Shown here piece by piece: positions 6,940 to 39,050 of a DNA stretch of 64,000 nucleotides. Made by a program: the position numbers and the translations under genes. The number at the start of each line of letters is the position of its first letter. Within the stretch, counting starts at the first letter, position 1. A model generated the notes under the pieces. The model made no database searches. It was not told the origin of the DNA and saw nothing but the letters and a program-made list of their open reading frames with translations. The DNA comes from an uncultured Collinsella sp. (GTDB taxonomy: Bacteria > Actinomycetota > Coriobacteriia > Coriobacteriales > Coriobacteriaceae): the NCBI GenBank assembly GCA_947642445.1, contig CANRSF010000004.1, positions 1 to 64,000 of the forward strand, written 5' to 3'.

Positions 6940-7010
6940 TAAGTTGCGGTGATATACGGACTGTTTGGCGCTTTGGAGCTTCAAAACAGTCCCTATCTCA
7001 CCGCAACTTA
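6940..7010. repeat. 27-bp imperfect inverted repeat with 17-nt loop
   Basis: taagttgcggtgatatacggactgttt / aaacagtccctatctcaccgcaactta. Confidence 0.85.
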
Positions 7011-8190: not shown

Positions 8191-8375
8191 GACGAATAGC
8201 CTCGGCCTCCCTAGTTACCGCAGGAGGCCCCAGGGCTTTCCTCCCAAATCTTTCCGCAGGACGGAAGGACCCCGCCGCGCGAAGCGCGCAGCGGGGTCCT
8301 GACATGTCCGAGGACGATTTGGGAGGAAAGCCCTAGGGCCTCCGATGAGAGCAGTTCCAGCCGAGGCTATTCGTC
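8191..8375. repeat. Nested foldback at the pfkA 3' end (three concentric stems)
   Basis: Outer 8191-8206/8360-8375 (gacgaatagcctcggc), middle 8223-8250/8316-8343 (27 of 28 paired), inner 8266-8300 hairpin. Confidence 0.9.
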
Positions 8376-9446
8376 GCCGAAGCTGATGCCCAGCGCTTTG
8401 GCCTCGCGCACCAGATCGCTCTGGGGGTCGACATATTTGAGCTTGCCGGCGACATCCTCGAGCGGCATATGGCACATCTTGCCGTCGCGCAGGGCAATCA
8501 TGTAGCCAAACTCGCCGCGCAGGCAGCCGAGCGCCGCCTCGACACCGCACTGGGTCGCAAAGATGCGGTCCTGGGCATCGGGCTGACCGCCGCGCTGCGT
8601 GTGGCCGGGGATGGCGACGCGGGTCTCGCGACCGGTCTTGGCCTCAATCTCCTTGGCGATGTCGTAGACAATCGACGGGCTCGTGCGCTCGGCGAGCTTC
8701 TTCTTGTACTCCTTCTTGGACAGTGCCGCGTCTTCCTTGGAGATGGCGCCCTCGGCGACGGCCACGATGGTAAAGCGGCTGCCGGTCTCCATGCGATGCT
8801 CGATGGTCTTGATGACGTTATCCATGTCGTAGGGGATCTCGGGAATCAAGATGACATCCGCGCCGCCCGCGACGCCGGCATACAGTGGGATCCAGCCAAC
8901 CTTGTGGCCCATGATTTCGATGACAAACACGCGACCGTGGCTCGAAGCGGTGGTGTGGATGTCGTCGATGCACTTGGTGGCGACGTCGATGGCGCTCGTA
9001 AAGCCAAACGTCAACTCGGTGCCCCAGGTGTCGTTGTCGATGGTCTTGGGCAGGGCGATAACGTTGAGGCCCTCTTCGCGCAGGCGGTTGGCGGTCTTGG
9101 TGGAGCCGTTGCCGCCCAGCATAAACAGGCAGTCGAGCTGCAACTTGTGATAGGTGTGGACCATCGCGGGCACCTTCTCGACGCCGTCGGCCTCGGGAGT
9201 ATCCAGGCGCTTGAACGGCGTACGGCTCGTGCCCAGGATGGTGCCGCCGCGGGTGAGGATGCCGCTAAAATCGGCGGGCGACATGACGCGGAACCTGCTG
9301 TAGATAAGGCCCTGGTAGCCGTCCTCAAAACCATAGATCTCGATAGGCTCTTCGCTATTGGTCATGAGCGTTTTGACAATGCCGCGCATGGTGGCGTTGA
9401 GCGCCTGGCAGTCGCCGCCACTGGTAAGAAGACCGATCCTGAGCAT
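8367..9446 (-). CDS. pfkA: 6-phosphofructokinase
   Basis: MLRIGLLTSGGDCQALNATMRGIV, LGGNGSTKTANRL, PKTIDNDTWGTELTFGF. Confidence 0.93.
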   Translation of the reverse strand: MLRIGLLTSGGDCQALNATMRGIVKTLMTNSEEPIEIYGFEDGYQGLIYSRFRVMSPADFSGILTRGGTILGTSRTPFKRLDTPEADGVEKVPAMVHTYHKLQLDCLFMLGGNGSTKTANRLREEGLNVIALPKTIDNDTWGTELTFGFTSAIDVATKCIDDIHTTASSHGRVFVIEIMGHKVGWIPLYAGVAGGADVILIPEIPYDMDNVIKTIEHRMETGSRFTIVAVAEGAISKEDAALSKKEYKKKLAERTSPSIVYDIAKEIEAKTGRETRVAIPGHTQRGGQPDAQDRIFATQCGVEAALGCLRGEFGYMIALRDGKMCHMPLEDVAGKLKYVDPQSDLVREAKALGISFGDE

Positions 9447-28010: not shown

Positions 28011-28045
28011 TTCTTGCAGATGTGGTGGCCTGTCTCGCTGCTTTG

Positions 28046-28261
28046 TCTCAATCTGTAACAGTTAGACGAGGAAATGGGTTCTACCTGTTACAGATCGAGA
28101 TTTTCTCTTCAGGGGGATTTGAATGTCTCGATCTGTAACATCTGGACGGCTAAAAGGTCTCAATCTGTTACAGATTGAGACAAAGGTCAGGGGCAAAGAC
28201 GGTTTGTCTAGATCTGTAACAGTTAGACGGGAATTCGGGCCCTAGATGTTACAGATTGAGA
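28046..28261. repeat. Six-copy array of a 15-nt motif (TCTCRATCTGTAACA) in alternating orientation, 40-41 nt period
   Basis: Motif starts 28046(+), 28086(-), 28126(+), 28166(-), 28207(+), 28247(-); spacers 25, 25, 25, 26, 25 nt. Confidence 0.95.
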
Positions 28262-28279
28262 TAATCGCGCCGCGAAAAT

Positions 28280-38699: not shown

Positions 38700-38751
38700 G
38701 CTGGACATATGTTGCGTAAATGCCCCAACTATCACCCTTTGCGAACTTAGA

Positions 38752-38882
38752 TTTCGGAAGTATGCGGCAAAATCTGAATAGGCCGAGCACGCCGGATATG
38801 TCCAAGCTCTGTACCTGCGGTTTTATTGGCGAAAAACCAGGATGTGCTCATGAGTTCCGGAATTTGCCGCATACTTCCGAAA
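38752..38882. repeat. Foldback element L3: 20-bp perfect inverted repeat arms, ~91-nt loop
   Basis: tttcggaagtatgcggcaaa / tttgccgcatacttccgaaa; loop contains gtacctgcggttttattgg. Confidence 0.9.
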
Positions 38883-39050
38883 ACGACGTCTCGGTGGCAC
38901 CAGAAACTGCCCTCGGAACCCTGAGATAATGAACATATGTAGCCGTTTGCCGCGAAATACCGCCCGTTTATAGAAACCACCCCCAGCGCGCGTCATCCTT
39001 ACGTTTGAATTAATACACATCTATGGAATTACGTAAGAGAGGACCGTTCC

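Follow-up and report, generated by a model that had tools for sequence, protein, structure and literature searches.

Nested foldbacks with conserved internal loops and locus-specific stems behind stop codons in Collinsella and other Coriobacteriales

The pfkA gene in the 64,000-nucleotide stretch of DNA from an uncultured Collinsella sp. analysed here (the window) ends in a long foldback that is one copy of a dispersed family. The family, the orientation of its copies relative to the genes, their invariant loops, the covariation of their stems without a bias towards G.U pairs, and the inverted copies of coding-sequence ends next to them are all directly visible in the comparisons reported below. 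We propose that these elements form a Coriobacteriales family of gene-end foldbacks, with nested stems and conserved loops, that has a role at the transcript level and whose stems are rewritten by template switching, a reading that we consider rather probable. In this model an element would consist of two or three nested stems, namely P1, which in some copies covers the stop codon, a long P2 and an apical P3, separated by the conserved internal loops J1 and J2, and would lie in sense directly behind the stop codon.

Behind pfkA, which encodes an ATP-dependent 6-phosphofructokinase, an inverted-repeat search recovered exactly the three nested pairings that the first-pass annotation of this DNA had proposed, with 16/16 matched positions in the outer pair, 27/28 in the middle pair and 15/16 in the inner pair (8266-8281/8285-8300). 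No other pair of arms of 22 nt or more in the window is as well matched as the middle one, whose lone mismatch reads as U.G in the pfkA sense. Since the minus-strand gene ends in GAC GAA TAG, the outer right arm contains its last two codons and the stop codon, as had been claimed and as the open reading frame (ORF) bears out. Read in the sense of the gene, the order is stop codon within P1, J1, P2, core, P3, core, P2, J1 and P1 (Table 1). RNA folding, one of the checks suggested at the outset, gave a minimum free energy for 206 nt of -148 kcal/mol on the pfkA-sense strand and -141 kcal/mol on the opposite strand, far below dinucleotide shuffles (z = -13.8 and -15.4, respectively), and none of 200 shuffles was as stable. 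We could discard an assembly artefact because the same structure, with differences in sequence, is found in about 15 independently assembled genomes. Elsewhere in the window, at 38745-38889, two 30-nt arms with 87% complementarity lie 85 nt apart, and we recognised no core of the families described here in them.

Table 1. Parts of the foldback at the 3' end of pfkA, in window positions
Feature	Position	Strand	Basis
pfkA, gene bearing the element at its 3' end	8367..9446	-	ORF; NCBIfam PRK03202 / PFK_mixed
P1 5' arm: last codons of pfkA, stop codon and 7 nt	8360..8375	-	outer inverted repeat; like pairing at other loci
P1 3' arm: inverted copy of the pfkA end	8191..8206	-	inverted repeat; kept in type-A and type-B alleles, lost in G019
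J1 outer internal loop, 5' side	8344..8359	-	unpaired in the fold; loosely conserved across loci
J1 outer internal loop, 3' side: TGCGGTAACTA..., recurring form TRCGTTTAC/TGCGNTAAC	8207..8222	-	compared across loci
P2 5' arm, 28-nt locus-specific stem strand	8316..8343	-	inverted repeat; covariation
P2 3' arm, 28-nt locus-specific stem strand	8223..8250	-	inverted repeat; covariation
Core 5' part CGTCCTCGGACATG	8303..8316	-	invariant at 13 loci
Core 3' part CGTCCTGCGG	8254..8263	-	invariant at 13 loci
P3 apical GC-rich hairpin	8266..8300	-	inverted repeat; type swapped between loci in other species

About eight further sites in the same genome (2.02 Mb in 47 contigs) resemble the pfkA query. 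They follow one pattern, which we call family A: the invariant core CGTCCTCGGACATG ... CGTCCTGCGG surrounds a GC-rich apical hairpin and is itself enclosed by arms of about 25-38 nt that match almost perfectly and have a sequence of their own at every locus. The exact core pattern is present in 25 of 45 congeneric genomes and, among named genomes, in Collinsella only, mainly C. aerofaciens and C. bouchesdurhonensis, bar one acidobacterial match inside an endonuclease III-like gene that was put down to chance. This distribution suggests that the window comes from a Collinsella of the aerofaciens group. A phage origin was rejected because none of the viral contigs searched contained a match to the family. 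Across the C. aerofaciens clade we counted around 13 independent loci, and in 12 of them, using simple ORF calls, the core follows a stop codon in sense at a distance of 36-63 nt. The remaining locus has no upstream stop codon; in its three examples (L019, L020 and L063) and their orthologues the element sits ahead of the start of a divergent gene. The genes concerned belong mostly to central metabolism. Those confirmed by NCBIfam are pfkA, pta (phosphate acetyltransferase), ilvE (branched-chain aminotransferase), thrB (homoserine kinase), grcA3, a larD-type transporter and a lactaldehyde reductase-type alcohol dehydrogenase, while groEL, nifJ (pyruvate:ferredoxin oxidoreductase), ppc (PEP carboxylase), fba (fructose-bisphosphate aldolase) and an oligopeptide ABC ATPase were named by eye.

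Sampling twenty 20-kb segments from a congener (400 kb, unbiased), and the same from distant Collinsella, extended the picture: the congener sample contained more long gene-end foldbacks, built around two other cores. Core C (CAGTCCTG...GTGCGGAACTC) occurs in 89 of 301 sampled Coriobacteriales genomes and in 26 of 107 genera, with as many as about 25 copies in one genome, and core D (TCAAACATTCTCG...TGCGAAACTGCG) in 32 of the 301. Exact matches in the genome that holds the window number 6 for A, 15 for C and 5 for D. Copies of C and D have the layout seen in A, with median stems of 34 and 32 bp, respectively. Searching the A, C and D regions with the covariance models of Rfam release 15 at the gathering score gave no match, and below that threshold there were microRNA-type chance matches or nothing. 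Besides, a pair of family D elements, facing one another across about 250 bp, lies between convergent genes (G000:C2:31777-32072, L328), and such facing pairs in several species have arm sequences in common, which hints at local exchange. Between two convergent ORFs of a distant Collinsella lies a palindrome whose 50-nt arms match perfectly around a 2-nt spacer (L249:13663-13764).

The long stem is wholly different between loci, yet 95-98% of it is Watson-Crick paired. Hardly any 15-mer is common to the arms of different loci, which have a weak consensus. When one representative copy per A locus was aligned, the core columns were invariant and 33 of 50 pairs had changes on both sides; 96.3% of the cells were paired, a level reached by none of 500 shuffles, against 75.8% after shuffling and about 39-50% at slid registers. 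Among near-orthologues, compensated double changes number 260, where independence would predict 14.7 (the pairwise comparisons are non-independent, yet the gap is very wide). At pfkA itself, an A-T pair has turned into T-A and a G-C pair into C-G between closely related species, with A.A and C.C forms seen in others, and such compensated transversions occur between genomes that are about 96% identical in pfkA.

The inverted copy of the gene end is not peculiar to pfkA. We compared the final 36 nt of each coding sequence with the 220 nt starting 40 nt after the stop codon and, with a complementarity score of at least 9, detected an inverted copy in 13 of 34 genes carrying an element (38%). Controls gave far lower shares: 4.4% in 225 other genes from the same genome, 5.1% in 236 genes from distant Collinsella, and 0% when the partners were shuffled. 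The best copies span 16-24 nt and are in varied states of decay, and P1 pairing is missing at around half of the loci. A coding sequence has little freedom to adapt, which makes the downstream arm the copy. The first-pass annotation had offered an inverted duplication of the gene end by template switching as one of two origins for the foldback. For the outer arm this is still the best reading, and one that sequence comparison supports well; the middle and inner parts, on the other hand, are a copy of a dispersed, sense-oriented family and not an accident local to pfkA. As a possible parallel we looked at a tRNA-Arg(CCT) gene behind which stand a hairpin and the T-arm region repeated in inverted orientation (L246:16881-17034 in G041; C11:23182-23421 in the genome of the window), which was set aside because the site is strain-variable and resembles an attachment site.

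Comparison of the pfkA 3' region across strains, which had been suggested as a check, showed that some relatives lack the structure or have a different one. Closely related species have one outer arm in common, enclosing two unrelated interiors (types A and B). Genome G019, about 97% identical in pfkA, has no element, and its junction carries a short repeat, GAAAT; given this loss, the element is not essential at pfkA. More distant Collinsella (L091, L094 and L096) carry short T-tailed terminators there instead. Regarding the apical hairpins, four types each recur at three to five loci, and single loci show up to six types across species; the arms show no comparable exchange between loci. The positions of the elements are orthologous across species and diverge vertically. 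Other repeats were noted in the same genomes. A 27-nt inverted repeat, TAAGTTGCGGTGA..., lies at 6940-7010 of the window, and the same hairpin family is found behind pfkA in G019 and G041 (L069 and L073) and at two other sites of G041 (L231:17636 and L246:5968). Positions 28041-28266 of the window hold a cluster of alternating inverted repeats with the motif TCTCRATCTGTAACA, similar to arrays in G041 (L233:7914-8261 and L246:2754-2812).

We envisage that during replication the nascent strand may snap back on the hairpin, so that one arm would be copied from the other, which would keep the stems complementary mainly at the DNA level. Snap-back copying of this kind would explain perfect stems that are unlike at every locus, compensated changes that include transversions, and inverted copies of upstream coding sequence beyond the element. 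Selection must act besides copying, since copying alone fails to explain the conservation of J1 and J2 or why P2 ends at about 25-38 bp. The conserved loops and the fixed orientation suggest action on the transcript, where the element may serve as a structure at the mRNA 3' end that blocks 3'-5' decay, helps to set the end, or both. Judging by its position, its orientation and the lack of a U-tract, stabilising or setting the mRNA 3' end is probably the role of the element. To our knowledge, 3'-end formation in these gut bacteria has hardly been studied. More tentatively, the elements could be a new class of self-templating gene-end palindromes, in which a conserved hairpin nucleus provokes snap-back synthesis and each copy rewrites its flanks and the gene end into stems, the foldback being used as a standard mRNA 3' end across a gut-bacterial order; this is a possibility that we would not put forward as the probable one.

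One could argue that the stems are those of a purely RNA-level 3'-UTR motif, in which compensatory point mutations become fixed through selection for the fold of the transcript, with no part for template switching. The sense orientation at gene ends, the invariant internal loops combined with variable stems, and the U.G and G.U pairs conserved on the gene-sense strand of the apical hairpin in most copies all agree with such a motif, and those wobble pairs mean that RNA selection may act on the apical hairpin. Compensatory stems and conserved loops in a fixed gene orientation are indeed what is expected of a structured cis-acting RNA. A stem selected in gene-sense RNA should, however, tolerate G.U far more than A.C. 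The unique mismatch events in P2, pooled over A, C and D, are 40 GT, 54 AC and 43 of other kinds, and there is no excess of GT over AC in any of the three families (26/27 in A, 7/12 in C and 7/15 in D). Together with the compensated double changes, this makes the P2 pairing look maintained by copying at the DNA level and not by RNA selection alone. Compensated transversions with A.A or C.C forms at about 96% pfkA identity also speak against the purely RNA-level motif, and a 3'-UTR stem needs no inverted copies of coding sequence, so we regard it as unlikely.

A mobile palindrome of the MITE, REP or foldback type, inserting at gene ends or into terminator hairpins whose stems would then form the arms, might account for the dispersed copies, for presence and absence at pfkA with GAAAT repeats at the G019 junction, and for inner parts swapped between loci, or the whole interior at pfkA. 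That junction is equally well explained by a deletion between short repeats, though, and it is the one presence/absence site with such repeats. The orthologous positions and vertical divergence fit mobility poorly, as do the uniform orientation and the absence of U-tracts and of shared terminal inverted repeats; the P2 arms, moreover, covary and have a weak consensus, unlike unrelated terminator stems. The single Y1 transposase (Y1_Tnp) match in the genome has no core beside it, unlike the repeat-flanked transposase of a REP/RAYT system, and a link to it was rejected. We therefore judge a mobile palindrome to be decidedly unlikely, and the idea of a foldback element inserted once at the stop codon, raised in the first-pass annotation, is disfavoured because the arms are locus-specific and have no terminal sequence in common. 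The same annotation was right that the structure goes beyond a terminator, with its three nested stems. An ordinary intrinsic terminator grown long would suit the short T-tailed terminators of distant Collinsella at this place, but no T-run follows P1, P2 or any other stem at pfkA, at least four T in the 8 nt after P2 were seen in only 6 of 74 independent copies, and the conserved core is internal. A separate downstream terminator was also detected at 5 of 33 loci, with a weak terminator finder and ORF-based gene calls. This last explanation is very improbable.

Our favoured reading, a transcript-level foldback family rewritten by template switching, points to an element that follows central-metabolism genes in abundant bacteria of the human gut and has apparently gone undescribed so far, as no published description was found in the literature searched. 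Since genomes hold tens of copies each and close species are many, it offers a large natural data set to separate template switching from RNA selection as keepers of stems. The nearest catalogued repeats are the REP and stem-loop (SLS) families, defined by conserved sequence and short stems (PMC3733652, PMC2267715, PMC1590033). GTAG-/CGTC-tagged REPs are likewise intergenic palindromes, some of their dimers lie within longer palindromes, and CGTC also occurs in the present core (PMC3733652). Those with the CGTC tag have stems of 8-9 bp, loops of 4-5 nt and a CCA-like tail, whereas here P3 has about 20 bp and P2 25-38 bp, CGTC lies inside a longer foldback without a CCA tail, the conserved part is internal and the arms are locus-specific. 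ERIC, NEMIS, BOX and RUP are, like these elements, lineage-specific, dispersed, structured intergenic repeats and candidate mRNA stabilisers (PMC1590033, PMC2267715); such families were collected by similarity of the repeat sequence, while the stems that make up most of the present element share almost none. A survey of candidate structured RNAs in the human microbiome has 250 palindromic candidates and some Collinsella motifs, and its motif list might include part of this family as an uncharacterised candidate; the only Collinsella motif named in its text lies upstream of L7/L12 (PMC8040213). Finally, template switching has been proposed as a way of creating and repairing RNA hairpins (Monttinen and Loytynoja 2022, PMC8794818). 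The likeness lies in perfect stems produced by arm copying, multi-base compensatory changes and a retained loop, and comparison of our sequences reveals both compensated changes of several types and inverted flanking copies. That proposal was described for microRNA and rRNA stems, and includes neither a dispersed bacterial gene-end family nor inverted copies of coding sequence.
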